Source of the DNA: Gammaproteobacteria bacterium
GTDB lineage: Bacteria > Pseudomonadota > Gammaproteobacteria > Chromatiales > Chromatiaceae
DNA: 64,000 bases
Direction: 5' to 3'
Assembly (NCBI GenBank): GCA_030065815.1
Contig: JASJCU010000002.1
Location: forward strand, 1 to 64,000
Part shown: positions 2,357 through 25,684 of the stretch, piece after piece
Numbering within the stretch: position 1 is the stretch's first letter
Layout: each line of letters opens with the position of its first letter
Program-made: the position numbers and the translations under genes
The notes under the pieces: generated by a model
What the model saw: only the letters and a program-made list of their open reading frames with translations
What the model was told of the DNA's origin: nothing
The model's database searches: none

Positions 2357-2497
2357 GTGAAATCTTTGTTGAGTTGTACTTTCGGTAAGGCCTGCAGTGA
2401 TATCCCGGGTGTCTGCATCGTGTTGCAGATGATCCTCGTCGTCGCCATCTCCGGCGTACTCGGTTACCTGTTCGTGACCCAGGAGCTGATGAAATAA
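2357..2497 (+). CDS. Small putative membrane protein (46 aa)
   Basis: GTG start preceded by GGAGG; MKSLLSCTFGKACSDIPGVCIVLQMILVVAISGVLGYLFVTQELMK with one hydrophobic helix. Confidence 0.45.
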   Translation: MKSLLSCTFGKACSDIPGVCIVLQMILVVAISGVLGYLFVTQELMK

Positions 2498-2578
2498 CGA
2501 CTCCGGGGCCCTCCCGCGGCAACGCCGGGGGGCTTGACCGCTCTTCGAGCGCCTTCTAAAGTCCGGCGCCTCGCCTGA

Positions 2579-2782
2579 GGTGCCTCTCGCCTTTCCCGCC
2601 AGAGGTTAAACGGGAAGCCGGTGCGCTCTGCTCCAGAGCCAATCCGGCACTGCCCCCGCAACGGTGATCGGGCCTGTCTGTCGCCCACTGCCACTGTGTC
2701 TGCCGACATGGGAAGGCGCGTGCAGACAGCGAGTCGCGGAGATTCCCCCGCCTCGCAGCCCGTCAGTCCGGATACCGGCCCA
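2579..2782 (+). ncRNA. Cobalamin (B12) riboswitch
   Basis: Conserved order 'ttaaacgggaagccggtgcg..aatccggcactgcccccgcaacggtga..ccactg..gggaaggcg..gcgagtc..gtcagtccggataccggcc' just upstream of btuB and an adenosyltransferase. Confidence 0.88.
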
Positions 2783-2914
2783 GGTGGATCTCAACCACGT
2801 TGCGGCGGGCGGCGTGAGACGCCCCGCTGACCCGCCGCGGTCCGCCGGCCCGTCTCCGCACGTCCCCCGCCTGTCACAGGGACGGCGCGGCGGGCGTCGC
2901 CCGGGGAGTTCGCC

Positions 2915-4837: not shown

Positions 4838-4839
4838 AC

Positions 4840-5385
4840 ATGGCCGACAGACTGACCCGCATCTACACGCGCAGCGGCGACGACGGCAGCACCGGCCTGG
4901 CCGGCGGCGAGCGCGTCGCCAAGGACCACCCGCGGATCGACGCGATCGGCGCCGTCGACGAGCTCAACTCGCACCTCGGCCTGCTGCGAAGCGCCGCGCT
5001 GGACAGCGGCGACGACGCGCTGCTCGAGACCCTCCAGCATCGCCTGTTCGATCTCGGTGGCGAACTGGCGATGCCCGGCAGCGAGCTGCTGCGCCCGGCG
5101 CACACGACGCAGCTCGAGCACGCGCTCGACGGCTACAACGCCGCGCTGCCGCCGCTGCAGGAATTCGTGCTCCCCGGCGGTAATGCCGCGGCGGCACGTT
5201 GTCACGTCGCGCGCACCGTGTGCCGGCGTGCCGAGCGCGAGCTGTTGCGACTTTCCCGCATCGAGCCGGTAAACTCCGCGGGCATCACGTTTCTGAACCG
5301 ACTCTCCGACCTGTTGTTCGTGCTGGCGCGTACGCTGGCGCGGCGCGACGGCGGCAGCGAGGTCACCTGGCGCAAGGACATCTGA
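4840..5385 (+). CDS. Cob(I)alamin adenosyltransferase, PduO/ATR type
   Basis: 'RIYTRSGDDGSTGLAGGERVAKDHPRIDAIGAVDELNSHLGLL' and 'NRLSDLLFVLAR'. Confidence 0.95.
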   Translation: MADRLTRIYTRSGDDGSTGLAGGERVAKDHPRIDAIGAVDELNSHLGLLRSAALDSGDDALLETLQHRLFDLGGELAMPGSELLRPAHTTQLEHALDGYNAALPPLQEFVLPGGNAAAARCHVARTVCRRAERELLRLSRIEPVNSAGITFLNRLSDLLFVLARTLARRDGGSEVTWRKDI

Positions 5386-5388
5386 CGC

Positions 5389-6168
5389 ATGGCGAAGCAA
5401 CCGGCTGTTGTCGTTGGCATGGGCGAAATGGGCAGCGTGTTCGCGCGCGCGCTGCTGCGGCTGGGCCACCCGGTCTACCCGGTGGATCGCAGGACGCGCA
5501 TGAAGGCATTGGCGAAGGTGGTGCCCGAACCGAAGCTGGTGCTGATCGCGGTCGGCGAGAACGACCTCGCGGCGGTGCTGAACAAGGTGCCCAGGGCCTG
5601 GCGCAGGCGTCTCGTGCTGCTGCAGAACGAACTCCTGCCTGACGACTACCGGCCGTTCGAGAATGTCACCGTGATCTCGGTGTGGTTCGAGAAGAAGCCG
5701 GGCCAGGACAGCAAGGTCATCATCCCGTCGCCGGCGCACGGCCCGCGCGCCAAGCTGCTGCGCCGGGCGTTGGCGACACTCGGCATCCCGGTCACGGTCG
5801 TCGAGCGCCGCCGCGACATGTTGTTCGAACTGGTCGTCAAGAACCTGTATATCCTGACCAGCAACATCGCCGGCCTGCGCGTCGGTGGCACGGTCGGCGA
5901 AATGCGCGATCGCCATGCCGGTTTCATGCGCGACGTCGCCAACGACGTGATCCGCCTGCAGGAGGCGCTGACCGGCACGCGCTTCAACAACGATCACCTG
6001 GTCGCCGCGATGCTGCGTGCGTTCGACGGCGACCCCGGGCACCCGTGCATGGGACGCAGCGCGCCGGCCCGGCTCGAACGCGCGCTCGACCACGCCGACC
6101 GCCTCGAGATCTACCTGCCGACGCTGCGCGCGATCGCGATCGAGCACGCCGAGCCGGTCGTCGCATGA
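5389..6168 (+). CDS. NAD(P)-binding ketopantoate reductase-like protein
   Basis: N-terminal Rossmann-like 'VVVGMGEMGSVFARALLRLGH'. Confidence 0.55.
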   Translation: MAKQPAVVVGMGEMGSVFARALLRLGHPVYPVDRRTRMKALAKVVPEPKLVLIAVGENDLAAVLNKVPRAWRRRLVLLQNELLPDDYRPFENVTVISVWFEKKPGQDSKVIIPSPAHGPRAKLLRRALATLGIPVTVVERRRDMLFELVVKNLYILTSNIAGLRVGGTVGEMRDRHAGFMRDVANDVIRLQEALTGTRFNNDHLVAAMLRAFDGDPGHPCMGRSAPARLERALDHADRLEIYLPTLRAIAIEHAEPVVA

Positions 6169-6632
6169 GCGAGGCGCCGCAGATCCTGCCCGGCAGCCGG
6201 GTCACGCTGCACCTGTCGATCCGACTCGAGGACGGCACCGAGGCGCTGTCGACCTTCGATGAAGAACCGGTCACGCTGACGCTCGGCGACGGCACGCTGC
6301 AGCCGGGCCTGGAGCTGGCGATCTACGGGCTCAGCGCCGGCGATCGCCAGACCCTGAACCTGCTGCCCGAGCAGGCCTACGGGCTGCGCGACCCGGCGCT
6401 GATCCAGCAGATGCCGATGACCGATTTCGGCGGTGAGTTCGTGCCCGAGGTCGGGCAGATCATCGCGTTCGCGATGCCCAACGACGAGGAGGCCGCCGGG
6501 ACCGTGCTCAGCGTCGACGAGGGCCAGGTCGAGGTCGACTTCAACCATCCGCTGGCCGGGCACCAGATTGCGTTCACGGTCGAGATCCTGACCGTCGAGG
6601 CGCCACCGGAAGATGCGGCGAAAGACGCCTAG
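6165..6632 (+). CDS. fkpB: FKBP-type peptidyl-prolyl isomerase, SlpA/FkpB type
   Basis: SlpA-like 'GDGTLQPGLELAIYGLSAGDRQTLNLLPEQAYGLRDPALIQQMP'; ATGA overlap with the upstream gene; precedes ispH. Confidence 0.9.
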   Translation: MSEAPQILPGSRVTLHLSIRLEDGTEALSTFDEEPVTLTLGDGTLQPGLELAIYGLSAGDRQTLNLLPEQAYGLRDPALIQQMPMTDFGGEFVPEVGQIIAFAMPNDEEAAGTVLSVDEGQVEVDFNHPLAGHQIAFTVEILTVEAPPEDAAKDA

Positions 6633-8338: not shown

Positions 8339-11300
8339 TTACTTGACCCGAACCCAGGACTTGCGCCCTTCACCGGACGACAGGGCGTTCTCGGTCTTGG
8401 CATCGATCTGCGCCTGCTTCGAACCGGAGAAGTACTTGCCTTCGCAGTCCTTGCAGCCGCCCGACGGCCCACCGACCCCGGCGAGGATCGCCGGCGCCTG
8501 GATGATGCCGACCTTGGACTTGGTTCCCGAGACCGGCGTGTAGGTGGTCACGTTGTTGACCGTCGTCGACGGCATATCGTTGAAGTCGAACTTGCCATCG
8601 CCGTTGAGGTCGAGCACCGGCACGTCCAGGCGGCCACCGGTGCGCGGATCGAGTTCCATCAGCCAGCCGGAGCCGCCCTCGTCACAGGGCACCGGCGACG
8701 GCAGCGTCGTGACGAAGATCAGCTTGCCGGCGCGCAGGATCGGTTGTGCGACCATCTTCTCGCCGCTGTCGGTCAGATCGAGATACCAGCCGCACGACTT
8801 GTTGACCGCGCAGGTCTCCGGCACGCCGCTGACGAACCCGGCCCATTGCACCGCCGTGTTGCTGACCAGGCGGATCGTCTCGGTATTGGTGCCGAACGTC
8901 GCGACCTGCGTGCTCGTGATCGTCTGCTGCTGCAACACGTTCGAATTGCGGGTCGTCACCGACGTGATCGTGTTGCCGTCGTCACGGTCCCAGATGCCGT
9001 ACATAGTGTTGTCCTGCACGGCGTTGGCCGGGTCCTGGTCCACCAGCTCGTAGTACTTGCCGGTACCGAAGAACACGATGCGGCCGATCGCCGACGTCGG
9101 GTGGAAGCCGACGGCCATGCGCGACGTGATGCGCTGCGGCACATTGCTCGCATTGCGCGCCGAGTACAGCAGCGTCGTGCTGGCACGGGTGAACCCTGTC
9201 GACGTCTTCGCGAAACGCCAGACGTTGCCGTTCAGGTCGCCGCCGTAGACCAGGTCGGCGTCACCGTCGCCGTCTGTATCGACCGGTGCCACGGTGGACA
9301 GGCCGTTGCCGCTGCCGTGCGAGCCCGACCCCGGGCCGGTATCGGAAAGGTCGATGCGCTGCAGTAGGACGCCGTCGCTGAGGCGCACGACGTACAGGAT
9401 CGCCTTGCCCGACTTGCCGTGATAGCCGTTGCCGAAGATCGCGACCCAGCCGAGATTGTCGACCTTGACGATCGACGGCTGGCTGTAGCTGTAGCCGAGT
9501 TCTTCGAAATCGCTGCCCGCGACCGTCGGCGTGGCCTCGATATCCCACAGCACCAGCTGGTTGGCATAGGTCTCGTCGAACTTGCCGGGATCGGTGACAT
9601 CGAGCGCAAACACGCCGCTGCCGCCGCCGCGCAGTGTGCCCACCAGCACCGTGTGCCACGCGCCGCTGAAGAACGCGTCGACGACGGTCGACGGACCGTC
9701 GACAAAGTACTGGTGCGTGTAGTTGGTCGACGTCAGCTTGCTCAGGTTGGGCGTCGGCACACCACTGACGACATTGGCATAGACCGAATTCGGCACGAAG
9801 GCGATACGCTCCTGGCCGGTGCAGGCCGACACCCCGTGCAGCGCGCCATCGTTGCCGCCGAAGTACAGGATCGGCTCACGCTCCAACGACCCCAACGGGC
9901 GCAGGTTACCGCCCGAGTCGCGGCAATCGACGTCGTCGTTGGCGGCGACGAACGACGAGTAGGCCACCGTCTCCATGCTGTCCGGATAACCGAAGGCCGG
10001 TGCACCGACGACGGTCGGCGTCGAGTTGACGACGTCGCCGAGCGGCGTGCTGCGGTCGCGGAAGCTGCCACCGTTGACCAGTTCGTTGCTGTCGTCACCG
10101 CGCAGCCAGTCCAGTCGATCGCTGCCGCGGCTGTCTGACAGCCCGGAACCCGGATTCAGATCCAACGCGGTCTGCTGCGCCGTGTTCAGGCTGGACCAGC
10201 GGAACGGGACACCGCTGCCGGCCCCAAGGTTCGCGGTCGGGTCCCAGGTGATCCATTCACGCCCGGTGTCGTGGTCCTGACCCGCCACGACCGTTGCGAC
10301 GTCCCACTCCTGGGGCAGCAGCGCACCGGTCGTCGTGTCGACCGGGAAGGACACGACGCTGCCGGACCAGTCGGTGCTGTCGAAGCGTGCCTGGTAGATG
10401 CGCGTCGACGTGCGCAGGCTGACGGTGTTGGCGACGACCGATGCCGACGACGAGGTCGTCGCGATCGTCGCCAGGTACGACGCCAGCTTCGGACCGATCT
10501 GCGACGGGTCGTCGGCGAAGAAGAAGCTGTCGGCGACGCCGTCGCCATCCTCGTCCCATTCGACTGCCTTGTCGGGCAGGTTGTAGCCGGTATCGCCGGG
10601 CGAGTCGGAGTCGTTGAACGAGCCGTACTTCGCCGCGAGTTCGAGCGGCAGCGGCAGGTTGCGCGCGGTCGACGTGCCGGCCGTGAAGGTCCGGACCAGC
10701 GGCGTCGGCTCCTTGTTATCCTGGCCCGGGTCGTCGTCGAACGAACTGAAGTTGGCACCGCCGCCGTGGTTCTTGATCAGGCCCGCGTAATCGCCGTCGG
10801 CCGTCGTGCCGACGACGATGAAGCCGAGGTTCATCGACACACCGCCCTCGGCGTGCATGAAACGCACCGTGACGCGTGCGGTACTGGTACCCGGGTTCGA
10901 ATCGTTGGCGCCGCTGCCGTCGTCGTCGCGCGTGGTACAGGCCGCGCCGACACAGATCGAGACGCGTTGCACCATGTCCATGTCATAGTCGTTGCCCCAG
11001 GCCGAGTCCTCCCACTGGGCGAGGAAACGCAGGTAGACGAGGTTGTTGTTGACGTCGTACTCCTGCTCCTCGATGTTCAGATGCGCGAGGCTCGACGATT
11101 TCCAGTTCGGCGAACCGGCCGCCGGCGTAGAGTTGGTCGGCCCCGCGTACGAGATCGGCACCAGCGTCATCGAACCGTTGCCGAGCGGGATCACGAAATC
11201 GGGCAGCGTCTTCGACAGCGCGATCGCGTAGGTGTTGATCAGCTGCTCATCGGTGCGGTCGTTGCGCAGGTCGCCATTGCTGCCGCCGATGTGCGCCTGG

Positions 11301-12961
11301 TGCGCGATACCCGCCATCGCGTAGCCACCCTGCTTGTTCGGCGACGTCGGGCACAGGCCACGCATCTGCGACAGCGACGTGAAGGTCTTCGCCGAGCAGA
11401 TATTGGTATCCGGGTTGGCCAGCGGCGTCGCACCGACCTCGCCGATGAACACCGAGCTGGAGATCGTGCCCTGCGAAACCTCCTCGGTGCCGACCGCGTT
11501 GGTCGCGGTGGTCAGGTTGCCGAGCACCGTCGGCACGGTACCCAGGTCGTCGGTATCGAAGTTGTTGTCGCCGCTCGAGATCACGACGACGTTCATCGGC
11601 GTGCAGTACTCGGTCGATATCATCGGGTCGTCCCACGTCGCCGAGGGCAGGCCCAGAGAATCCGATGCGACATCGAAGGTGCCGGTCGCCGAACCCTCGC
11701 CGATCAGGTAGCGCACCGATTCGAGGTACAGTTCGGACACCGGGTTGCCCCAGTTCGAACAGCGCCGGTTGCCAGACGTGCTGGTCAGGTAGGTGTTGAT
11801 GTCGATGCCGAAGGTGTCGCAGTCGCTGTAGTGCGTATCGTCGTAGTCCCAGGTGTTCAGGCGCACCTTGTCCAGCGTCGACACGATGCCGTTGACGCTG
11901 CCGTTGAACGTGCCATCGGTCAGGTTCACCTCGTCGTCCGACGCCGAGGCATTGCCGGCGAACAGGCCCATCGCCTTGCGCAGCACGCCGCCGTGATCGC
12001 GCTTCTGGTAGCTGCCGCTGACCAGCCCGAAGCGCAGCGTGCCGTCCTCGCCGTATTCCTGCAGCAGGCCGATCGGCTTCGAGTCGGTGCCGTTGTAGCT
12101 GCGGCAGTTCTCTTCGAGCTTGCCCGACACGCAGACCTCGACCTTGACGTTCGGTGCGTTGTTGGTGTTGGCGCCGAACAGGTTGTCGGCGTTCTTCGGT
12201 ACCGTGCCGGCGTTCCGGTTGGCGTTGGTGCGGAAGTTGGTCTCGTACCACTCGCACTGGTTGCGTTCGCCGGATGCCCAGCGACCCCAGTCGCCGCTGG
12301 CGATACGCACCTTCGGCGGATAGGTCGCGGTCGACATGTTCTGCGTCTCTATCGTGCCGACGTTCGGGTCGGGCGTCGAGTTGCACAGCGTCATCGTCGC
12401 GACGTTGTACGGCGTGTAGTTCTGGGTCGTGTCGGTGAGGCTCGGCGTGAAGACCTTGGCGAACGAGTGCACGTCGTTGGCGAGCAATGTCCGCTGCAGC
12501 ACGGTCTGGCTCGCGCTGTCGACCGCGCGCTTGCCGCCGTACAGTGCCTTGCGCAGCACGTCGATGCGGGTCATCGTCGCCCAGTTCAGGAAGTTGCCGC
12601 TCCAGTCGCCGTCGGAAGCGGCGTTGTTGCAGTGATGCAGGTTGCTACCGCTGGCGGCATTGCGCGGCTCGAAATAGCCGCTGCTACTGTCGTACTGGTA
12701 GCAGCGCCTGCTGTCGAAATAGCCGAAGTAGTCGAAAGTATCGACATAGGTGTTGTCGATGACGCCGTCGCCGTTCAGGTCCGAGTAGTCGGCGAAGGCC
12801 TTGGCGAACAGCTGGTGATCGACCGACATCGCGAACATCACCATCGGGCTGACCTGGGACACGAGGAACAACGGCTCCTGGGCCGGCAGCGCGATCGCCG
12901 CGCGGCTCGACATCAAACCCCACGCGACGGCAACGGCAGAACTGAGAATCTTGTTGCGCAT
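8339..12961 (-). CDS. pilY1: PilY1-like tip-associated pilus biogenesis protein (1540 aa)
   Basis: Size, C-terminal PilY1 propeller with Ca-binding 'DTDGDGDADLVYGGDLNGNVWRF', position in the minor-pilin cluster. Confidence 0.93.
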   Translation of the reverse strand: MRNKILSSAVAVAWGLMSSRAAIALPAQEPLFLVSQVSPMVMFAMSVDHQLFAKAFADYSDLNGDGVIDNTYVDTFDYFGYFDSRRCYQYDSSSGYFEPRNAASGSNLHHCNNAASDGDWSGNFLNWATMTRIDVLRKALYGGKRAVDSASQTVLQRTLLANDVHSFAKVFTPSLTDTTQNYTPYNVATMTLCNSTPDPNVGTIETQNMSTATYPPKVRIASGDWGRWASGERNQCEWYETNFRTNANRNAGTVPKNADNLFGANTNNAPNVKVEVCVSGKLEENCRSYNGTDSKPIGLLQEYGEDGTLRFGLVSGSYQKRDHGGVLRKAMGLFAGNASASDDEVNLTDGTFNGSVNGIVSTLDKVRLNTWDYDDTHYSDCDTFGIDINTYLTSTSGNRRCSNWGNPVSELYLESVRYLIGEGSATGTFDVASDSLGLPSATWDDPMISTEYCTPMNVVVISSGDNNFDTDDLGTVPTVLGNLTTATNAVGTEEVSQGTISSSVFIGEVGATPLANPDTNICSAKTFTSLSQMRGLCPTSPNKQGGYAMAGIAHQAHIGGSNGDLRNDRTDEQLINTYAIALSKTLPDFVIPLGNGSMTLVPISYAGPTNSTPAAGSPNWKSSSLAHLNIEEQEYDVNNNLVYLRFLAQWEDSAWGNDYDMDMVQRVSICVGAACTTRDDDGSGANDSNPGTSTARVTVRFMHAEGGVSMNLGFIVVGTTADGDYAGLIKNHGGGANFSSFDDDPGQDNKEPTPLVRTFTAGTSTARNLPLPLELAAKYGSFNDSDSPGDTGYNLPDKAVEWDEDGDGVADSFFFADDPSQIGPKLASYLATIATTSSSASVVANTVSLRTSTRIYQARFDSTDWSGSVVSFPVDTTTGALLPQEWDVATVVAGQDHDTGREWITWDPTANLGAGSGVPFRWSSLNTAQQTALDLNPGSGLSDSRGSDRLDWLRGDDSNELVNGGSFRDRSTPLGDVVNSTPTVVGAPAFGYPDSMETVAYSSFVAANDDVDCRDSGGNLRPLGSLEREPILYFGGNDGALHGVSACTGQERIAFVPNSVYANVVSGVPTPNLSKLTSTNYTHQYFVDGPSTVVDAFFSGAWHTVLVGTLRGGGSGVFALDVTDPGKFDETYANQLVLWDIEATPTVAGSDFEELGYSYSQPSIVKVDNLGWVAIFGNGYHGKSGKAILYVVRLSDGVLLQRIDLSDTGPGSGSHGSGNGLSTVAPVDTDGDGDADLVYGGDLNGNVWRFAKTSTGFTRASTTLLYSARNASNVPQRITSRMAVGFHPTSAIGRIVFFGTGKYYELVDQDPANAVQDNTMYGIWDRDDGNTITSVTTRNSNVLQQQTITSTQVATFGTNTETIRLVSNTAVQWAGFVSGVPETCAVNKSCGWYLDLTDSGEKMVAQPILRAGKLIFVTTLPSPVPCDEGGSGWLMELDPRTGGRLDVPVLDLNGDGKFDFNDMPSTTVNNVTTYTPVSGTKSKVGIIQAPAILAGVGGPSGGCKDCEGKYFSGSKQAQIDAKTENALSSGEGRKSWVRVK

Positions 12962-12973
12962 GGTCTTTCCCTC

Positions 12974-13537
12974 TTAGTTGCCGTTCCAGCTGAAATAGGT
13001 GCTCTGCAGGACCACTTCGGTGTTCGGCGACACGCCGTAGCCCTTCGCCGTGACCCGGTAGTGATGCACGCGCGGCGGCTGGTTCTGGGTGCCGATCGCC
13101 AGGTCACTGTTGCCGATCACGGTCTTCGGCAGTTTCTCGATGTAGTACTCGGGCACCGCGGCGACCAGCAACTTGCTGTTGTAGGTCAGCACCGACGCCG
13201 GGACCAACAGCCCGTAGTTGCTGCCGGTATTCGGATCGACGCTGGTCGACGATGCGGTGACCTCGTAGGTGCCGCCGGTCCCGTCGAACGCCATCGCCGA
13301 GTGCGTCGTGGTGTTTGCCACGCCGCCTTCGCCGGTGCGCAATGCCGACTCGGCGGCCTCCAGCGCCGCGCTGTAATCGCGGAAGTTACCGGCCATGCGC
13401 TCCTCCATCGTCGTGTCGCGCAGGCTCGCGGTGCCGAGCACGGTCAACACCAGCAGCAGCACCAGCGCGACGATCAACACCGCGCCGCGTTGTTTGCGGA
13501 GGATTCTGGGATTTGCGTTTCGCATCGTCTGGTCCAC
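12974..13537 (-). CDS. pilX: PilX-like minor pilin
   Basis: 'RKQRGAVLIVALVLLLVLTVLGTASLRDTTMEERMAGNFRD' typical PilX N-terminus. Confidence 0.9.
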   Translation of the reverse strand: MDQTMRNANPRILRKQRGAVLIVALVLLLVLTVLGTASLRDTTMEERMAGNFRDYSAALEAAESALRTGEGGVANTTTHSAMAFDGTGGTYEVTASSTSVDPNTGSNYGLLVPASVLTYNSKLLVAAVPEYYIEKLPKTVIGNSDLAIGTQNQPPRVHHYRVTAKGYGVSPNTEVVLQSTYFSWNGN

Positions 13538-14581
13538 TTAAAGCACCGAGTTCCGGATCGAAATCAGTGAGCTGAATTCCTGGCGCAGGCGAAAGTCGCC
13601 GGTGGGCGGCGAGATCGACGTGCTGCCAGACGGAAAATAGGTATACGGGGCCTCGACCGCGCTGGCACCCTCGACACTGTTGAGCAGCAGCGAGACGCGC
13701 ACCGCCATGACCTCGTCCCAGTCGTACAGGCTGCCGGTCGGCCGGATCTGGCCGGCATGTCCGAACGCGTCGATGTCGCCGTTGCCATCGGTATCGAAGG
13801 CGTAATCGATCTGCATGTTTTCGACGCCATCGACGAGCTCCACCGCGTTAGTGCCGTCGAAGCGGTACAGCGCATTGATCGCCTGGCCGGTCTGGTTCAG
13901 GCGGCCGGTATCGCCGACGAAATAGGTGTGACGGTCGAATTCCATGACCACGGCATCCGAGCCGTAGGGCTCAGCGAGTTCGTTGTGCTTGTTGCCGGTC
14001 GTGTGCGTGATCACGGTGTTGCTGCCCGCTGTCGAGACGTTGGTGGCGCGGAAGATCGTGCCGCTCTTGCAGTCGCCGATCAGCAGGAACTCGTTGTTGG
14101 CGAAGCCCGTCGCCGTGCCAAGCACCGTGACGTTGCCGTTCTTCAGAACCGGCGCCGCGACGAAGGCGACGTTGGAGCGCAGCGGGCCGCGGATCTCGAT
14201 CGAATCGGTATTGCTCACCATGTCCACGCTGCCGATCGTGACCGTACCGCTGGGATCGTTGCGGCCGTCGAGGAACTGGCCCGCGGCGAAATCGTCCAGC
14301 CATGCCGTCGCGCCCGATGCCGTGACGACATTCTTGAAATGCGGTTCGATATGCGGCGATTTGCAGCCGCCGAACCCGGCCTGCTGCAGATCGGCGGCGA
14401 TCTGCCGGACCGCGTAGCGGCCGTTCTCCTGCAATGTGCCGAGCCCGTTCTGCATCTGGTAGGTCGCCTTGTTGGCCGAGAACACCAGCAGCACGCCGGC
14501 CAGCAGCACCAGGCTCAGCGTCGTCGCGACCATCAGCTCGACCAGGGTCAGGCCGGTTTGTTTGCCAAACGCTCGGGTCAT
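13538..14581 (-). CDS. pilW: PilW-like minor pilin
   Basis: 'KQTGLTLVELMVATTLSLVLLAGVLLVFSANKATYQMQNGLGTLQENGRYAVRQIAADLQQAGF'. Confidence 0.92.
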   Translation of the reverse strand: MTRAFGKQTGLTLVELMVATTLSLVLLAGVLLVFSANKATYQMQNGLGTLQENGRYAVRQIAADLQQAGFGGCKSPHIEPHFKNVVTASGATAWLDDFAAGQFLDGRNDPSGTVTIGSVDMVSNTDSIEIRGPLRSNVAFVAAPVLKNGNVTVLGTATGFANNEFLLIGDCKSGTIFRATNVSTAGSNTVITHTTGNKHNELAEPYGSDAVVMEFDRHTYFVGDTGRLNQTGQAINALYRFDGTNAVELVDGVENMQIDYAFDTDGNGDIDAFGHAGQIRPTGSLYDWDEVMAVRVSLLLNSVEGASAVEAPYTYFPSGSTSISPPTGDFRLRQEFSSLISIRNSVL

Positions 14582-15036
14582 AGCTGGGCCCTCGTGACCA
14601 GTTCGAGTTTCGCGCTGACGTCGCGGGCATCGGTCCAACGCACCTTGACCTCGGCGAGGCCGCCCGCGGTCACGCTGACCTCGCCTTCACCGGCCGGCAG
14701 GCGCTCGACGTAGGCGTGCCAGAGCTCGACGTCCATCTGCGCGACCTGGGCCGCCGAGCAGCTGCCGGCACAGGTCACGTGTGATGGCGTCACGCCGTAG
14801 TTGATGTCGTAGTCGCCGTCGCGGGCCGCGTCGCGGTTGGCGCGCATGCGATCGATTATATCGGTCGTCGCCAGCGTCGCCTGCGAACGCAGGAACGCGC
14901 TGTGATTGCTGCGCAGACCGGTCGTCTGCAGACCGCTGAGACCGAGCAGGCCGATCGACAACACGATCAGCGCGACCAGTACCTCGAGCAGCGTGAAGCC
15001 ACCCTGTCGATGTTGCTTGCCGGCCATCAGCTGCAT
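14578..15036 (-). CDS. pilV: PilV-like minor pilin
   Basis: 'RQGGFTLLEVLVALIVLSIGLLGLSGLQTTGLRSNHSAFLRSQATLATTDIIDRMRANRDAA'. Confidence 0.92.
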   Translation of the reverse strand: MQLMAGKQHRQGGFTLLEVLVALIVLSIGLLGLSGLQTTGLRSNHSAFLRSQATLATTDIIDRMRANRDAARDGDYDINYGVTPSHVTCAGSCSAAQVAQMDVELWHAYVERLPAGEGEVSVTAGGLAEVKVRWTDARDVSAKLELVTRAQL

Positions 15037-15578
15037 ACCCCGCGGTTCAAACGGACCTGGCCACTGTTCATGATGTGCAGGCAGCGCTGCTGGTTACCGG
15101 TCGACTCGTTCTGGCCGAGCTGGATGCAGCTGCCGCTGGTCGCGCACACACCGGCATTCGCGGTCAGCGCGGCGACCTCGCCCTGCGCCTGGTAGGTCAC
15201 GAACGCGCCGGTGGTCACCGCGGTCGCACCGTCGATCGTCAACGCGAACACCTTCAGCCGCTCGTCGCCGCCGTCGACGGTGCCGGCGGTACCGCCGTCG
15301 GTGAATACCAGCAGCCCGTTGTCCCAGTCGCTGTTGCTGCCGCAGACGATCGGGTTGGCGGTCGGATCGGCGATCGCGCAGACCGACACCCCGGTGCCGC
15401 GGCGGATCGCCTCGCTGCGCGCCAGCTTGAACGCGGTCAGGAAGGTGTTGGCCTGGGTCGTCGCCCGGTTGTTGGCCGCGACGCCGCTGAACAGCGGCAT
15501 GCCGACCGCGACCAGGATGATCGCCACGGCCAGCGTGACCATCAGCTCGACCAGCGTAAGTCCCTGTTGTGTCTTCAT
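15027..15578 (-). CDS. fimT: FimT/GspH-family pseudopilin
   Basis: 'QQGLTLVELMVTLAVAIILVAVGMPLFSGVAANNRATTQANTFLTAFKLARSEAIRRGTGVSVC'. Confidence 0.9.
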   Translation of the reverse strand: MKTQQGLTLVELMVTLAVAIILVAVGMPLFSGVAANNRATTQANTFLTAFKLARSEAIRRGTGVSVCAIADPTANPIVCGSNSDWDNGLLVFTDGGTAGTVDGGDERLKVFALTIDGATAVTTGAFVTYQAQGEVAALTANAGVCATSGSCIQLGQNESTGNQQRCLHIMNSGQVRLNRGVCS

Positions 15579-17488: not shown

Positions 17489-17644
17489 CATCCGCGCCCG
17501 CCCGTTGCGGTATGCTTGGTGGCAGGCACAGCGTTCCTGCACGGCACGCAGGCGGCGGCACCGCGATGAGCACAGCAAGCGCACAGGGATGGCGGCATCG
17601 GCGGCAGCGCGTCGCTGCAGCTGCTTCTAGGGCCCGGCCGGCCG

Positions 17645-19411
17645 ATGGCTGCTGAGCGGCCCAACGTCTTCATCAGTTACCGGCGCGACGACGCCGCGGC
17701 CAATGCCGGCCGCCTGTTCGACTGGCTCAGCGACCAGTTCGGCGACGCCCACGTGTTCCTCGATACGAGCCGGATCGCGATCGGCGCCGATTTCGAACGC
17801 GTCCTCGGCGAGCGCCTGGCCGCCGCCGACGTCGTGCTGGTCGTCATCGGGCCGCGCTGGCTCGACATCGCCGACGCCAACGGCCGCCGCCTCGACCAGC
17901 CCGACGACTACGTGCGCATGGAGGTCGCGACCGCACTGCGCAGCGGCACGCGCCTGATCCCGGTGCTGGTCGGCGGCGCCCGCATGCCGGCCGCCGAGCG
18001 GCTGCCGGACGCGCTGCGGGCGCTCGCGACGCGCAATGCGACCGAACTCCGCGATGCCGGTTTCGAGCAGGATTTCGACCAGCTGGTCAACGCGATCCTC
18101 GACCGCCCGCGCGGCTACCTGAAGACCGAACTCGACCGCGTGCAGCGCCTGCTGCGCGCGATCCGCGTGTCGACGCTGCTGGTGCCGACCGTCGCACTGC
18201 TGGTCGTGATCGCGATCTGGGTCGGCGCCCTCGAGGCGTTCACGCTGGACACCCGCGCCGCCAGCTACCTGATGTGGGCCGGCGAACAGCTGGCGCCGCC
18301 GGGCGCGCAGCCCGGCGTGCTGCTTGTCGCCGTCGACGGAGACAGCGAACGACGCCTGCGGCGCGACTTCGGCCCGGTCGCCGCGTGGCGCAGCGACCAC
18401 GCGCGCCTGCTGCGGCGCGCCGCGGCCGCCGGCGCGACGGCGGTGGTCTTCGACCTGGTGTTCGAACGCGCGACCGCGGCCGACGCCGAGCTGGCCGCCG
18501 CGATGCGCGCCGCACGGGCGCGCGGCACGCGCGTCGTCGTCGGCGTGCGTGACCTCGACGCCGGCCGGCCGCGGATCGCCGCGGCACTGCGCGACGCCGC
18601 CGACTGGGGCTCGGTGTGCATCAACCGGCGCCTCGGCTACAGCTACATGGCGCCGCTCGCCGTCGTCGCCGCCGGGCCGGACTTCGCCGCGGTGCAGCCG
18701 GCACGGACGCCGGCGCTGGCACTCGCCGCGGTACGCGGCGACGCGCTGCAGGCGGTCGACATCGAGCGCCGGCGCCTGGTGCTCGCCAACGACCCGGCGC
18801 CGGCAGCGGCGCCGCGATTCTCGCTGCTGCACCGCATCTCCGGCGCGACCGGCGACTGCGGTGCGCTCGCCGACGGCGACCTGATCGCCGCGCAGCTGAT
18901 CCGCTTCACCGACGCCGGCTACTGGCATGAGCCGCAACGCCGCGTGTCGTACGCCGACGCGCTCGACCCGCAGCGCGTGCCCGACAGCGCGCTCGCCGGG
19001 CGCATCGTGCTGGTCGGCGCGACCCTCGGTCGACGCGACCGCGTCGACGTCGTCAGCGGCTTCGACCGCCATGCCCTGTACGGCGTCGAGCTGCACGCGA
19101 ACGCGATCGCCAACCTGCTGAGCGGTCGCGAGATGGTCACGCCGACACTCGACAGCGACGCCTGGACGGCCCTGCTCGCGGCGGCCGCCGGTGCGCTGTT
19201 CGGTTACCTCGCCGCCGCGTGGAATCCCTGGCTGCGCCGCGCGCTGCTGCTCGCACTGGCCGGCGGCTACCTCGGCGTCGCCGCCGTGTTCGCCGGACAC
19301 GGACTGCTGCTCAACGTGCTCTACCATGTCAGCGGCTTCGTGATCGCGTTCACGCTGCTGCGTCGCCTGCGCAGCGGTGCGTTCGATCACCGCACCCGGC
19401 GCCGGTCGTGA
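17645..19411 (+). CDS. TIR domain - transmembrane - CHASE2 - multi-TM membrane receptor
   Basis: N-terminal TIR ('NVFISYRRDDAAANAGRLFDWLSDQFGDAHVFLD', 'DDYVRMEVATALRSGTRLIPVLVGGARMP'), TM ~aa 175-198, CHASE2-like periplasmic region ('VLLVAVDGDSERRLRRDFGPVAAWRSDHARLLRRAAAAGATAVVFDLVFE', 'LAGRIVLVGATL', 'YGVELHANAIANLLSGR'), hydrophobic C-terminal segments. Confidence 0.85.
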   Translation: MAAERPNVFISYRRDDAAANAGRLFDWLSDQFGDAHVFLDTSRIAIGADFERVLGERLAAADVVLVVIGPRWLDIADANGRRLDQPDDYVRMEVATALRSGTRLIPVLVGGARMPAAERLPDALRALATRNATELRDAGFEQDFDQLVNAILDRPRGYLKTELDRVQRLLRAIRVSTLLVPTVALLVVIAIWVGALEAFTLDTRAASYLMWAGEQLAPPGAQPGVLLVAVDGDSERRLRRDFGPVAAWRSDHARLLRRAAAAGATAVVFDLVFERATAADAELAAAMRAARARGTRVVVGVRDLDAGRPRIAAALRDAADWGSVCINRRLGYSYMAPLAVVAAGPDFAAVQPARTPALALAAVRGDALQAVDIERRRLVLANDPAPAAAPRFSLLHRISGATGDCGALADGDLIAAQLIRFTDAGYWHEPQRRVSYADALDPQRVPDSALAGRIVLVGATLGRRDRVDVVSGFDRHALYGVELHANAIANLLSGREMVTPTLDSDAWTALLAAAAGALFGYLAAAWNPWLRRALLLALAGGYLGVAAVFAGHGLLLNVLYHVSGFVIAFTLLRRLRSGAFDHRTRRRS

Positions 19412-19426
19412 AACGGAGGACCTACC

Positions 19427-20425
19427 ATGCCCAGCATCGCCTTCCCCCGCCTGTCGACATCCCTGCTGCTGCTCACGCTGTGTGCGCTGTGGCTCGGCGG
19501 CTGTGCGCCGAGCAACCGCCTGACCAAGGTCGTGCGCGCCGACCCGTCGGCGCCGCTCGGCTACGTCGAGGTCCACGACCGTGACAGCGGTATCGTCGCG
19601 GTGATCCGCGGCGGCCGCCGGCTCGGCACGCGCACGCCGCTGACCCTGCAGCCCGGCGACGAGGTCCGAACCGGGCCGGGTGCCGGCGCCGTGATCCGCC
19701 TGCTCAACGGCGGCGAGGTCGTGCTGGCGCCGGATACCCACGTCCGCCTCGGCTCGCTCGAGGTGTTCTTCGGCCGCGTGCTCGCCGACCTGCGCGGGCT
19801 GTTCGAGATCGAGGACGACACGCTGGTCGCCGCGGTCGAGGGGACGCGCCTGCTGTTCGAACGCGAGCGCGGCCGCAGCACCCGCGTCGCAGTGCTCGAG
19901 GGCCGCGTGCTGTGCATCCCGAAACGCGGCCACTGGGAGCCGGTGCGCCTCAACGACGGCCAGGCGCTGCGCACCCGCTATGCCAGCGACCGGCGCCCGG
20001 CGATCGAGCGCCTCAGCCGGGCCGAGATCGCCGACATCGAACGCTGGTCGTCGGGCATCCGCGACGCCGCGCGCGCCGGCTTCTGCTGTGCCGGCGGTCG
20101 GGTCACCGAGACCCTGTCCAACCAGTGCCGCGGGCGTTTCTTCGACAGCGAACGGCGCGCGCGCCGGCACTGCGAGTCGGGCTGGTGCTGTCGCAACGGC
20201 AGCGTCACGTCGAGCCTGCGCGGCGACTGCCGCGGCAGCTTCCACAACAACCGGACCGCCGCGGAGCGCGCCTGCGCCCCGCCGGAACCCGCGGTCGTAC
20301 AGGGCTGGTGCTGCCTGCAGGGCAACCTGCGGCAGACCGACAGCCGCTACTGCAAGGCGGTGCAGGGGCAGTTCTATACCAACGGCGCGGTCGCCAAGCG
20401 GCGCTGCCTGCCGGTGGTACAGTGA
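19427..20425 (+). CDS. FecR-domain lipoprotein with three C-terminal Cys-rich repeats
   Basis: Lipobox 'LWLGGCAP'; FecR-like 'LQPGDEVRTGPGAGAVIRLLNGGEVVLAPDTHVRLG..'; tandem units AGFCCAGGRVTETLSNQCRGRFFDSERRARRHC / SGWCCRNGSVTSSLRGDCRGSFHNNRTAAERAC / QGWCCLQGNLRQTDSRYCKAVQGQFYTNGAVAKRRC. Confidence 0.8.
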   Translation: MPSIAFPRLSTSLLLLTLCALWLGGCAPSNRLTKVVRADPSAPLGYVEVHDRDSGIVAVIRGGRRLGTRTPLTLQPGDEVRTGPGAGAVIRLLNGGEVVLAPDTHVRLGSLEVFFGRVLADLRGLFEIEDDTLVAAVEGTRLLFERERGRSTRVAVLEGRVLCIPKRGHWEPVRLNDGQALRTRYASDRRPAIERLSRAEIADIERWSSGIRDAARAGFCCAGGRVTETLSNQCRGRFFDSERRARRHCESGWCCRNGSVTSSLRGDCRGSFHNNRTAAERACAPPEPAVVQGWCCLQGNLRQTDSRYCKAVQGQFYTNGAVAKRRCLPVVQ

Positions 20426-20435
20426 CAGCGGTCGC

Positions 20436-23400
20436 TCAGTCGTGCTCGATCTTGTAGAACAGGTCGACCGATTGCTCGCTGCCGGATCGGCTCTCGACCT
20501 CGAGCCGCTCGCTCAAGCGCAGGCGTAGCAGCACCGCGCCCTCGGGATTGAACAGGCCCTGTGAGTAGCCGAGGTAGAGGTCGGGATTGAGGTACTTGCC
20601 GAGCAGCAGCGAGCTGTCGGCGATGCCGCCGCTGCCGTTGTCGACGCGCAGGTCGTCGAGCCCGAGGCGGTCACCGAGGTCCTGCAGCAGCGGCTCGCTG
20701 CGCGACAGGCCGAGCGACAGCGCGGCGCTGCCGATGTCCTGGCCCTCGCCGGCGCTGGCCGCGGCGAGGCCACGCCCGGTCAGCAGGTAGGCGACCGCCT
20801 CGGCCTCCGGCAACGCCGGTTCGGTGTAGACGCGCGGCCGCGGCTCGGCCAGCGGCCCGCTCATCGCCAGGTAGGCACGGACACGGCCGTCGCGCGACTC
20901 GCGCACGGCGCGCAGGTCGACCTCGGGGTTGCCCGGCGGTCCGGCGAACAGCAGGCGGCCCTGCTCGACCTTCAGGTCCTGGCCGTAGGCCTTGTAGCTG
21001 GCGTCGCGCAGCTCGATCTTGCCGTCGACCAGCGTACCGCGCTGCCCGCTCTGCGCATCCAGGCTACCTTCGAGGCGGGTCTTCAGGCCGAAGCCGGCGA
21101 AGGTCACGTCGTCGCCGAGTACGACCGCGATCGCGGCATCGAGCGCCTGGCGACGCGCCGCCGGCGCGGCCGGGGCATCGCGACCGACGATGACCGCGTC
21201 GTCGCTGACCGCGACGGTACCCTGGGGCAGTTCCTGGAGCTCGATCGCGGCCTGCGGGATACGCAGCGTGCCGGTCAGGCGGTAGCTGCCGCGGCCCTGC
21301 AGCCGCAGGTCCGGCGACACCCGCGCGGTCGCCTCGGGCAGGCGCACGGCGAGGAAATCATCGCCGCGGATGCGCAGATCGACCGCCGGGCCATCGCTGG
21401 CAACAGGATCGACCTGGCCGCGGATCGCAATGCGACCGTCGCCGGAGGTCACGCTGCCGTCGACCGCGAGCGGGCCCTGCCCGTCGCCGCGGACCTGCAG
21501 GCCGAAGTCGCGCAGCTCGATGCCGGCGGCCGGCAGCGTCGCAGCGGCGTCGCTGATCCGCAGCTCGCCGTCGATCGCCGGCTGCGCCAGCGTGCCGCCG
21601 AGCGCGAGCGCGACACGCAGCCGGCCGCTGACCGCCTGCAGTGCCGGCACGAAACCGGCGACCAGCGTCAGGTCGGGGAACTCGGCATCGACGCGCCCGC
21701 CGAGCGCGCGGCCGCCGTCGCGCGCCGCGCCAAGCGTCAACCTGCCGCCGGCGCGGCCGCTGCTGCCGAGCCGCAGACCCAGCTCGGCCTCGCCTCGGTC
21801 ATCGGCGAACCGCCCGCTGACGCGCGCGTCGCGGTAGGCCAGCACGACCGGTTCGAGGCCCTCGTCGACACGGATCTCGCCGTCGTCGGGACGCAGCTCG
21901 AAGGTCGCCGCTGGCCGCTGCGGCGGCCCCTCGACGCGGACGCTGGCATCCAGGCTACCGGCGATGACGGCCTCGCCGGGCAGCTGGGCGGCGAAACGGG
22001 CGAGGTCCAGCGCGGCGAGGCGGCCGTCCAGATCCAGCCCCTTTGCGCGGCTCCAGCCGCCGTCGACGCACAGCGATGTCGCGCCCTGCTCCAGGCACAG
22101 GCCGTCGACCTTGGCCAGGTCGGCGCCGGCACGCAGCGGCGTCGCCTTACCCAGGCGCCAGTCGCCGAGCTGCAGCGAGTTCGCATCGAGGTTGCGCAGC
22201 GTGCCGCGCCACTCGGCAGCGCGCTGGTCCCAGCCGCCCTGCGCGCCGAACGCGACACGCACGGCCGGCCCGTCGGCACTGAGTTGCACGCGGTGGTCTG
22301 CGATACCACCATCGAGCGCTGCCGACAGCGCGCTGATCCGGGTCTCGCCGCTGACCAGCCCGGTCGCGGTCAGGTTCGCGGTTCCGCGCTGATCCCGCCA
22401 GTCGATGCCTAGCTCGAGCGCCGCGATCCGGGCACCGTCGAAACCGACCTCGCTGCCGCTGAGCTGTGCGCTCAGCGCCGGCCGGTCTTGCGTACCACGC
22501 AGCGTGCCGCTGCCCTGCAGCGCACCGTCGAGGCCGGGGTACAGTGCCGCCAGCTGCGGGGCCTCGATGGTGAAGGCGAGGTCGAGGTCGCGGTCGGCGC
22601 GGCCGTAGACGCGGACGCGATTGGGCCCGCTGGTCAGGTCGAGCGCGCGCGCCGTCAGCGCGTCGCCGCGCAGCGCGACGCCCCCCGACGCGGCGACCGG
22701 GTAGCCGCGCAGGCTGCCCGCGAGGCGCTCGATCGCGACGTCCAGCGCCATCGCGGCGTCGCCGCCGAACCTGCCGTCGAGCCGCAGGCGGCCGTCGAGC
22801 CGGCCCGGCCAGTCGGCCGCGAAAAGGCCGGGATCGACGCCGTCGACAGCCAGCGCCAGGTCGGTGCGGACGCCGTCGGTCCAGGTCAGCGTGCCGTCGG
22901 CCTCGACACGGCCGTCACCGACACCGAGCGTCAGCGGCTGCAGCCGCAGACCGGCCGTGTCGCCCTGCGCCTGCAGCGCCAGCGCCACCTCCGGCAGGTC
23001 GGGCAGCGACAGCGGCGCGCGCAGCGTCAGGCGGTAGTCGTCGGGCGTGCCGCGCAGCGCGAGGCTGCCGGCAGCGGCGCGGTACTGTGCCGTTCCGTGC
23101 AGCGGCCAGTACAGCTGCGGCCAGCTGACATCGACGCTGAACGCCGGCGCGACCTGGTCGAGCACCGCGTCGGCACGCGCCCGCAGCTCGAGCGGTGTCT
23201 CGATCGCGGCCACGAGTTCTGGCCGCAGGGCCTCGCCGGACAGGGTCATGCGCGCGCGCATTTCGCCGATGTCCGGCCCGGTCAGCGTCGCCGGCAGCGT
23301 CGTGCGCAGGCTGCCATCGAGCGCGTGCGGTGCGGTCGTGGCCAGGCCCAGCGCACCGTCGAGCTGCGCGCCCGCCACGCGCAGCTGCAGCCCGTCGATG

Positions 23401-23957
23401 CGGATCGCGGCGCTGTCCAGCAGCGCGGACAGCCCGAGGTGGTCGAGCACGAGGTCGCCGTCGGCCTGCTGTAGGCGCACGTCGTCGAGCGTGGCGCGAT
23501 CGATGCGCAGCGTCAGCGGCACGCGCAGGGCCGGCAACTGCGGCGCCTGCGCCGGTTCATCGGACGCCGGCGGCAGCGCGACGCGCAGCCCGTCGACCGC
23601 CAGCTGCTCGACGTGCAGCACCCGGTCGAGCAGCGCGCGCGGCCGCCATGCCAACAGCAGCGATGCCGCAGCGACCCGCGTCTGCGCGGCGTCGACGGTC
23701 AGCCCGCGCAGCTCGATGCGCTCGAGCAGGCTGCCGTGGCTACTCGTGAACGCGATGGAAACGCCCTGGTCGGCCGCGACGCCGGCGAGCTGCTGCAGCA
23801 GCCAGGCGCTGCCGCGTTCGCTGGCCAGCAGCGCATAGGCCCCGAGCGGCAGCGCCAGCACCAGCAGCAGCGGTAGCAGCAGCAACCAGAGCAGCCAGCG
23901 CCAGCGTCGCGGCCGTGGCGCCGGCGGCGCGGTCGCGGGCGTGCCGCCCGACGTCAC
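20436..23957 (-). CDS. tamB: TamB-like translocation and assembly module protein
   Basis: Large beta-helical AsmA/TamB-like protein with N-terminal TM and a C-terminal DUF490/TamB region ending '..LFYKIEHD'; GTG start overlapping the tamA stop. Confidence 0.9.
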   Translation of the reverse strand: MTSGGTPATAPPAPRPRRWRWLLWLLLLPLLLVLALPLGAYALLASERGSAWLLQQLAGVAADQGVSIAFTSSHGSLLERIELRGLTVDAAQTRVAAASLLLAWRPRALLDRVLHVEQLAVDGLRVALPPASDEPAQAPQLPALRVPLTLRIDRATLDDVRLQQADGDLVLDHLGLSALLDSAAIRIDGLQLRVAGAQLDGALGLATTAPHALDGSLRTTLPATLTGPDIGEMRARMTLSGEALRPELVAAIETPLELRARADAVLDQVAPAFSVDVSWPQLYWPLHGTAQYRAAAGSLALRGTPDDYRLTLRAPLSLPDLPEVALALQAQGDTAGLRLQPLTLGVGDGRVEADGTLTWTDGVRTDLALAVDGVDPGLFAADWPGRLDGRLRLDGRFGGDAAMALDVAIERLAGSLRGYPVAASGGVALRGDALTARALDLTSGPNRVRVYGRADRDLDLAFTIEAPQLAALYPGLDGALQGSGTLRGTQDRPALSAQLSGSEVGFDGARIAALELGIDWRDQRGTANLTATGLVSGETRISALSAALDGGIADHRVQLSADGPAVRVAFGAQGGWDQRAAEWRGTLRNLDANSLQLGDWRLGKATPLRAGADLAKVDGLCLEQGATSLCVDGGWSRAKGLDLDGRLAALDLARFAAQLPGEAVIAGSLDASVRVEGPPQRPAATFELRPDDGEIRVDEGLEPVVLAYRDARVSGRFADDRGEAELGLRLGSSGRAGGRLTLGAARDGGRALGGRVDAEFPDLTLVAGFVPALQAVSGRLRVALALGGTLAQPAIDGELRISDAAATLPAAGIELRDFGLQVRGDGQGPLAVDGSVTSGDGRIAIRGQVDPVASDGPAVDLRIRGDDFLAVRLPEATARVSPDLRLQGRGSYRLTGTLRIPQAAIELQELPQGTVAVSDDAVIVGRDAPAAPAARRQALDAAIAVVLGDDVTFAGFGLKTRLEGSLDAQSGQRGTLVDGKIELRDASYKAYGQDLKVEQGRLLFAGPPGNPEVDLRAVRESRDGRVRAYLAMSGPLAEPRPRVYTEPALPEAEAVAYLLTGRGLAAASAGEGQDIGSAALSLGLSRSEPLLQDLGDRLGLDDLRVDNGSGGIADSSLLLGKYLNPDLYLGYSQGLFNPEGAVLLRLRLSERLEVESRSGSEQSVDLFYKIEHD

Positions 23958-25684
23958 AGGTCGGCCCCGAGGCCGAAGTGGATGCGCCACTCGTCGTCGG
24001 CGGTATCGTCCGGCAGCGCGACGTCGAGGCGCAGCCGGCCGACCGGCGAGTACCAGCGCACGCCGACGCCGTAGCCGCTGCGCAGCTCGATGTCGTCGGT
24101 ATCGAAGGCATTGCCGGCGTCGACGAACGCCGCGACCCACCAGTCGTCGCCGAACACCGGGTGCTCGTACTCGACGCTGGTCGTCAGCAGGTGGCGGCCG
24201 CCGCGTGGCTCGTCATTGGCGTCACGCGGCCCCAGCGACTCGAACTCGTAGCCGCGTACGCTGTTGTCGCCGCCGGCGAAGAAGCGCAGCGAGGCCGGCA
24301 GGTCGGTGACGCTGTCGCCGGCCGTCAGGCCGGCGTCGACGCGGCCGGTGATGCGTCCGGCGTCGCCGAAGCGGTAGATGCCCTTGGCCCGCCCGACGAT
24401 GCGGAACAGCGTCGCGGTCGACAGCAGGCCGTCGTGGGCGCCGCGCAGCTCGAGGTTGACCCGGTACCCGCGGCGGGTACGCAGCAGGTTGTCGGCCTCG
24501 GTGCGGTCCCAGCCGATGCCGGGCATCAGCAGGGTCGCGTCGGTGTCGTCATCGCCGACCGTCGAGCGCTCGTGCAACAGCTCGATGAAGCGGTTCTGCG
24601 TCCAGCGGCCGACCTTGCGCGTGTGGCGCACGACCAGCGCCGCGCTGTCGCTCTCGGCGCTGTCGGTGTCCTCGTGCTGCAGGCGTGCGCCGAACGAATA
24701 GCTGTCGACGTGCGGGTCCTCGCCCGGGATCACGTAGTCGGCAGCCAGCGTCGACAGCACCGGCGACAGGCTCAGCGCGCTCTCGAAGCGATGGCCGCGG
24801 CGATTGATGAAGCGGTTGTCGTAACGCAGGCTGGCGCGCGGCCCGGTATCGGTCGCGTAGCCGATGCCGGTGCGCCAGGCGTGCCGTTTCGCGGCCTCGA
24901 GTCCGACATCTATCGGGATCGCGTTGTCGTCGGCCTGGTCGCGCCGTGGACGCACCTCGACGCGTTGGAAATAACCCGAATCGCTGAGCCGGCGGTCGAG
25001 TGCCGCGACCGCGCTCGCCGCGTAGTCGGTCCCCGGCCGCAGGCCGGCGAGGCGGCGCACGAAGCCTTCGTCCAGCGGCTGCTCACTGATGCGCACGTCG
25101 CCGAAGCGGTAGCGCGGTCCGCTGTCGGCGGCGATACGGATCTCCGCCTGCGCGGTATCGGGATCGATGCGCAGCTCGCGCCGGCGGTACGCGAAGTCGA
25201 GGTAGCCGCGCTCGGCCGCAAAGCGCTGCAGGCGTTCCTTGATCGCCTCGTAGTCGCCGTGGTGCAGCGGCGCGCCGACCGCCAGCGGCAAGCTGTCGAT
25301 CAGCCCGTCGAACTCCGGATCGTCGGCGGCCTCGCCGCTGATGTCGATGCGGCGCGACGCGATCGTCGTGCGCACGCCGAGCGCGATGTCGACGTCGGCA
25401 CGCCAGCAGTCGTCGCCGCGTTCGAGGCGCGGCGTGATCGCGGCGCCGTAGTAGCCGAACGCGTGTAGCGCCGGCTGCAGGTCGCCGCCGAGGCGGCGGA
25501 ACAGACGTTGCACGCGCCACGCCGGCGCGTCGCAGGCCTCGTCGGTGAGCGGCGTGCGTGCCGCGAGGTTGTCAACCAGACCGTCCGGCGCATCGGCCAC
25601 ACGAAACTCGACCGCGGCGTGACCCGGTGCCAGCCAGACGGCCAACAGCCAGGCCGGCCAGGTTCTACATGTACGGGAGATCAT
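23954..25684 (-). CDS. tamA: TamA (BamA/Omp85-family outer-membrane protein)
   Basis: Signal peptide, POTRA domains, Omp85 barrel ('GGDNSVRGYEFESLGPRDANDEPRGGRHLLTTSVEYEHPVFGDDWWVAAFVDAGNAF'). Confidence 0.93.
   Translation of the reverse strand: MISRTCRTWPAWLLAVWLAPGHAAVEFRVADAPDGLVDNLAARTPLTDEACDAPAWRVQRLFRRLGGDLQPALHAFGYYGAAITPRLERGDDCWRADVDIALGVRTTIASRRIDISGEAADDPEFDGLIDSLPLAVGAPLHHGDYEAIKERLQRFAAERGYLDFAYRRRELRIDPDTAQAEIRIAADSGPRYRFGDVRISEQPLDEGFVRRLAGLRPGTDYAASAVAALDRRLSDSGYFQRVEVRPRRDQADDNAIPIDVGLEAAKRHAWRTGIGYATDTGPRASLRYDNRFINRRGHRFESALSLSPVLSTLAADYVIPGEDPHVDSYSFGARLQHEDTDSAESDSAALVVRHTRKVGRWTQNRFIELLHERSTVGDDDTDATLLMPGIGWDRTEADNLLRTRRGYRVNLELRGAHDGLLSTATLFRIVGRAKGIYRFGDAGRITGRVDAGLTAGDSVTDLPASLRFFAGGDNSVRGYEFESLGPRDANDEPRGGRHLLTTSVEYEHPVFGDDWWVAAFVDAGNAFDTDDIELRSGYGVGVRWYSPVGRLRLDVALPDDTADDEWRIHFGLGADL

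Follow-up and report, generated by a model that had tools for sequence, protein, structure and literature searches.

Two adjacent genes lie on the + strand of the window, the 64,000-nucleotide stretch of gammaproteobacterial DNA that we analyzed, and encode a membrane receptor and a lipoprotein. The receptor gene (17645..19411; 588 aa) carries a TIR_2 domain at the N-terminus (aa 8–148, 17666..18088; Pfam E = 1.5e-13, above the curated cut-off) followed by a CHASE2 sensor match (aa 184–512, 18194..19180; Pfam E = 8.1e-26, 91.6 bits against a cut-off of 26.3). Hydropathy places one transmembrane segment ahead of CHASE2 (TM1, 18161..18241) and three behind it (aa ~502–572, 19148..19360). The AlphaFold model (mean pLDDT of 83) is concordant, with the TIR domain followed by a long helix (aa 158–199) that contains TM1 and links TIR to CHASE2, an alpha/beta domain and the three TM helices. 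The Pfam CHASE2 match overlaps the last part of TM1 and the first part of TM2, and the sensor is predicted to be mostly periplasmic. Both receptor termini suit a cytoplasmic location, since positive residues are read from the sequence before TM1 and after TM4. The protein ends ~16 residues past TM4, and the only recognizable output is the N-terminal TIR domain, unlike in the usual CHASE2 receptors, which place the output at the C-terminus. The first-pass annotation had proposed this order of an N-terminal TIR, a CHASE2 domain at aa ~200–470 and C-terminal hydrophobic segments, and the Pfam matches, hydropathy and model all concur with it. An antisense ORF of 872 aa (17627–20245, − strand) spans the pair and was taken as a by-product of high GC content rather than a gene.

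Two cysteines in the middle segment of the CHASE2 region, Cys325 (18617..18619) and Cys405 (18857..18859), are kept in 12/12 of the receptors described below. In the comparisons seen, this segment showed no alignment with CHASE2 proteins of other architecture. Judged from the sequences, Cys325 and Cys405 probably form a disulfide that is peculiar to the TIR-CHASE2 subfamily.

The second gene (19427..20425, + strand; 332 aa) starts after a gap of 15 nt and is preceded by a Shine-Dalgarno-like GGAGG (19415..19419), 7 nt ahead of the ATG. The encoded protein has a signal peptide with the lipobox LGGC26, as read from the sequence (19427..19504), a FecR domain (aa 78–161, 19658..19909; Pfam E = 1.1e-6, above the curated cut-off) and three Cys repeats (20078..20173, 20180..20275 and 20303..20407). 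The repeats follow the pattern G-W/F-CC..G...C..G.F......A...C, with nine invariant columns across six copies from three proteins. The structure model of the lipoprotein is poor (pLDDT of 57), with repeats 1 and 3 at ~75–87. The same-strand FecR lipoprotein, its 15-nt gap, the three repeats and the GGAGG had all been picked out in the first pass, and each was recovered in place. A FecI-FecR anti-sigma system was ruled out, the FecR protein here being a lipoprotein with a signal peptide, and no sigma gene was identified among the ORFs neighboring the pair.

We compared the TIR domain to solved structures. Its sequence relatives in the PDB are of the SARM1 type only (SARM1/TIR-1; profile E = 2e-16), and in fold the TIR model best matches TIR structures of SARM1 (TM-score to target of up to 0.86). 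Glu93 (17921..17923), within YVRMEV, aligns with the glutamate of SARM1 WVHKEIVTAL, Glu642, which is needed for NAD hydrolysis (PMC8295901). This is the residue that the first-pass annotation had placed at the NADase catalytic position, and it is invariant in 12/12 receptors together with Tyr12, Arg13, Arg14, Asp40 and Gly47, despite ~30% overall identity to the distant members. At the sequence level, the candidate catalytic pocket appears to be retained. The position of SARM1 Trp638 is Tyr89 in the window protein and mostly Val in the distant members. By homology to SARM1, with which the domain has the TIR fold, the pocket residues and the catalytic-position Glu in common, the receptor likely has an NAD-linked output.

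The TIR domain might instead be a non-enzymatic assembly module, whereby an envelope signal clusters the receptor and the TIR domain draws in further TIR proteins from the same cell, among which several have membrane anchors as well. The host genome encodes 12 TIR_2 domains, several of them in TIR-TM proteins, and the loss of SARM1 Trp638 would fit this reading. The conserved Glu is no proof of catalysis either, since a Glu occupies this position in over 70% of TIRs overall, with or without enzymatic activity (PMC7075850). However, the nearest structural relatives are all SARM1-type NADases and the six residues listed above are invariant even between distant members, and we consider a purely assembling role unlikely relative to an NAD-linked output.

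Other TIR proteins in the window genome and its relatives are SARM1-like, with an N-terminal TIR domain, one or more TM-like segments and C-terminal parts that vary (L102 1396–2112, L104 4841–5662, L105 338–1315, L106, L107 and L108). They suggest that membrane-bound TIR proteins form a wider group. Two further loci (L042 3535–5424 and L043 5679–7502) encode proteins of ~600 aa with a C-terminal TIR domain that is ~50% identical to the window TIR, and an N-terminal part without a Pfam match.

Relatives of the receptor were sought in 212 genomes of the same order and in a wider scan of 85,462 species genomes. Eight full-length TIR-CHASE2 proteins occur in seven of the 212 genomes, window included, and the wider scan yielded four more (two from Burkholderiales, one from Thauera and one from a gammaproteobacterium). 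All 12 are from Pseudomonadota, and the relatives are 29–52% identical to the window protein. CHASE2 is present in 124 of the 212 genomes, and TIR domains on their own are common, whereas proteins that combine the two are scarce. No additional full-length member turned up among 369 sampled genomes of the class, and we therefore regard the module as rare. We ruled out phage or plasmid cargo, since viral contigs held no relative of the module and plasmids gave TIR-only matches alone.

A FecR gene is adjacent to the TIR-CHASE2 gene at 11 of the 12 loci. The two are on the same strand at the window, L035, L048, L049 and L040, with overlaps of 4 or 14 nt at the last four, and at L038, where one gene intervenes; they are convergent at L036, L041, L039 and L050, and divergent at L052. 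The window FecR protein, used as a query, matched 9 of the 212 genomes, including all seven that hold TIR-CHASE2 (hypergeometric p ~1e-11), and the matches in the other two genomes are weak. Trees of the two partners are congruent in their main clades (Mantel r = 0.72, p = 1e-4). The neighborhood check suggested in the first pass thus finds the pair conserved among the relatives. Near CHASE2 genes without TIR, FecR was found in 7 of the 18 cases checked. We conclude that TIR-CHASE2/FecR is a real, conserved and co-evolving chromosomal module; an artefact or chance association was ruled out, since coding, domains and pairing are all conserved.

At the twelfth locus (L037, genome G018), the sole FecR relative found is unlinked and of a different type, an orphan FecR protein with PASTA-like repeats (L109 6146–8368), and a PG-binding FecR partner was sought in this genome but not found. 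The neighbors of L109 are transporter genes which resemble, at the gene starts, those flanking the full pair in a congener (G017, L041). It is possible that a receptor was lost at the L109 site.

Even within one genus, the window and its relative L047 have different flanking genes, thus the pair stays joined while its surroundings vary, and no recurrent effector gene was found beside it. At L048, the region beside the pair (2455–6177) holds a further TIR gene, whose product has a TM-like segment, together with genes for a GDSL-like hydrolase, a protein resembling OmpA/MotB and an unassigned product of 201 aa.

TIR NADases are common effectors of abortive infection, and the patchy occurrence of the module (7/212 genomes) and the neighborhoods that vary within one genus (window and L047) would be consistent with strict phage defence, in which adsorption or injection disturbs FecR-CHASE2 and elicits a TIR-driven abortive infection. 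We regard this role as less probable still than an assembling TIR. PADLOC gives partial TIR matches only, no defence genes or defence-island context were seen around the window pair, which is flanked by SNase, DAO and envelope genes, and the module is absent from viral contigs, with TIR-only matches on plasmids. Moreover, FecR partners with PASTA or PG-binding domains fit general wall surveillance equally well. The Thoeris ThsB/ThcB4 TIRs share a weak sequence match with the receptor TIR over ~aa 7–73 (partial in PADLOC), and membership of Thoeris was ruled out on score (NCBIfam ThcB4, 51.5 against a cut-off of 220). No ThsA-type effector was identified beside the pair, and a STALD search for the ThsA SIR2-SLOG architecture gave no match in 7 genomes, in which the controls were silent too.

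The C-terminal part of the FecR partner tracks the receptor clade. Cys repeats are found in the partners of the window, L035 and L049 and are absent from that of L048; the L050 partner has five PASTA domains, and PASTA-like repeats were recognized by eye in L036 and L041; PG_binding_1 is present in L039 and L052, the former pair (L039/L055) being that of Sedimenticola selenatireducens DSM 17993; and the L038 and L040 partners have a short C-terminal form. Within the same order, convincing matches to the Cys repeats are confined to the window and its same-genus relative. PASTA and PG_binding_1 bind the cell wall in characterized proteins, so that wall or outer-membrane attachment is the common theme of these partners. 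The clade-dependent C-termini point to such an anchoring, while the Cys repeats may be a further attachment or ligand module. The first-pass annotation had suggested that an envelope or redox cue is sensed. The envelope part of this idea is strengthened by the PASTA or PG_binding_1 domains of the sister-clade partners, whereas the redox part is weakened, since the Cys repeats occur in only 3/12 modules. A redox cue may still be sensed, given the two cysteines that all 12 receptors keep within CHASE2.

Comparable pairs are known with other outputs, such as the FecR-CHASE2 adenylate cyclase clusters (in Campylobacterota, for example; PMC9239204) and the operon of a FecR/LysM protein and a CHASE2 histidine kinase in Burkholderia (PMC5192318). 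These likewise encode an envelope or periplasmic FecR partner beside a CHASE2 membrane receptor, and the Burkholderia partner has a wall-binding LysM module, comparable to the PASTA and PG_binding_1 modules on the sister partners here. Their output is a cyclase or kinase rather than TIR, and in the Burkholderia kinase, as in the two CHASE2-cyclases of the window genome, it is C-terminal to CHASE2, rather than N-terminal. An N-terminal effector is found in the caspase-CHASE2 proteins. PMC3501461 describes a Trichodesmium metacaspase-CHASE2 protein with one TM segment before CHASE2 and three after, and PMC8195603 describes EACC2-caspase-CHASE2 proteins. Both share an N-terminal conflict or death effector with the receptor, and the Trichodesmium protein has the same TM layout. 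However, the effector is a caspase-like protease and the text consulted mentions no FecR partner, in contrast to the TIR domain and FecR partner here. Animal Toll-like receptors are also membrane receptors with an extracytoplasmic sensor and a cytosolic TIR domain, but this is an analogy only: the sensor is another one, the domain order is reversed, the receptor here has no LRRs, and we claim no common descent as receptors.

SARM1 is cytosolic and gated by its ARM repeats and NMN/NAD, whereas the gating that we propose here is periplasmic. The active site is built from two subunits in class III cyclases as well as in SARM1-type TIRs, and a single sensor that gates dimers could therefore serve both kinds of output. 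CHASE2 is able to restrain the output, since its deletion in CyaD1 leads to constitutive cAMP output (PMC5498481). From the FecR-CHASE2 chassis, the restraint by CHASE2 and the two-subunit sites we interpret the module as a TIR NADase or cyclase under envelope control, and we lean towards a two-gene envelope receptor with a FecR-gated TIR NADase or cADPR-type output. In this model, the FecR lipoprotein would be exported and tethered to the outer membrane or cell wall, with its FecR domain touching the periplasmic CHASE2 of the inner-membrane partner. At rest, this contact would keep the TIR domains in the cytoplasm from adopting an active arrangement. An envelope change, such as wall damage, lost spacing or a bound ligand, would shift the contact, and the shift would travel along the continuous TM1 helix to the TIR domains. 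These may then assemble a SARM1-style two-subunit active site and cleave or cyclise NAD+, which would either deplete NAD+, so that growth stops or the cell dies, or yield a messenger of the cADPR type. A sharper version, which we put forward tentatively, is a transmembrane TIR receptor whose tethered FecR reports an envelope breach via CHASE2 to a SARM1-like NADase, resulting in direct NAD+-based suicide or a cADPR-type alarm. Envelope homeostasis, with a FecR-CHASE2 sensor like those of the cyclases and kinases and a TIR domain that makes a low-level regulatory nucleotide without lethality, seems very unlikely to us: this chassis feeds cAMP or phosphorelay signaling elsewhere and two CHASE2-cyclases are encoded in the same genome, but the STALD search revealed no protein that could receive a cADPR-type signal, a weak point since the control was silent as well.

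The module looks like a bacterial envelope-sensing TIR receptor. To our knowledge, most characterized bacterial TIR effectors respond to cytosolic cues. Cyclase and kinase outputs of FecR-CHASE2 pairs have been described, as have caspase-CHASE2 proteins; for a TIR output on this sensor we found no paper. Literature searches that combined TIR with either of the other two domains, in a coverage that lay largely outside subscription journals, yielded no account of the pair, and an earlier mention is possible. If the TIR domain is wired to a periplasmic sensor, the module would reveal a route by which NAD-based pathways of death or alarm sense the integrity of the envelope, and TIR would join the cyclases, kinases and caspases already seen as CHASE2 outputs. 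The system is compact, with two genes, one candidate catalytic residue and one candidate disulfide, and makes the job of FecR-CHASE2 pairs testable via NAD+ levels.

Other envelope-related genes were recognized by eye in the window. Two TamB/TamA-like outer-membrane assembly genes (20436–25684, − strand) are convergent with the FecR lipoprotein gene, and a type IV pilus minor pilin-like cluster with a PilY1-like tip protein is encoded at 8339–15578 on the − strand.
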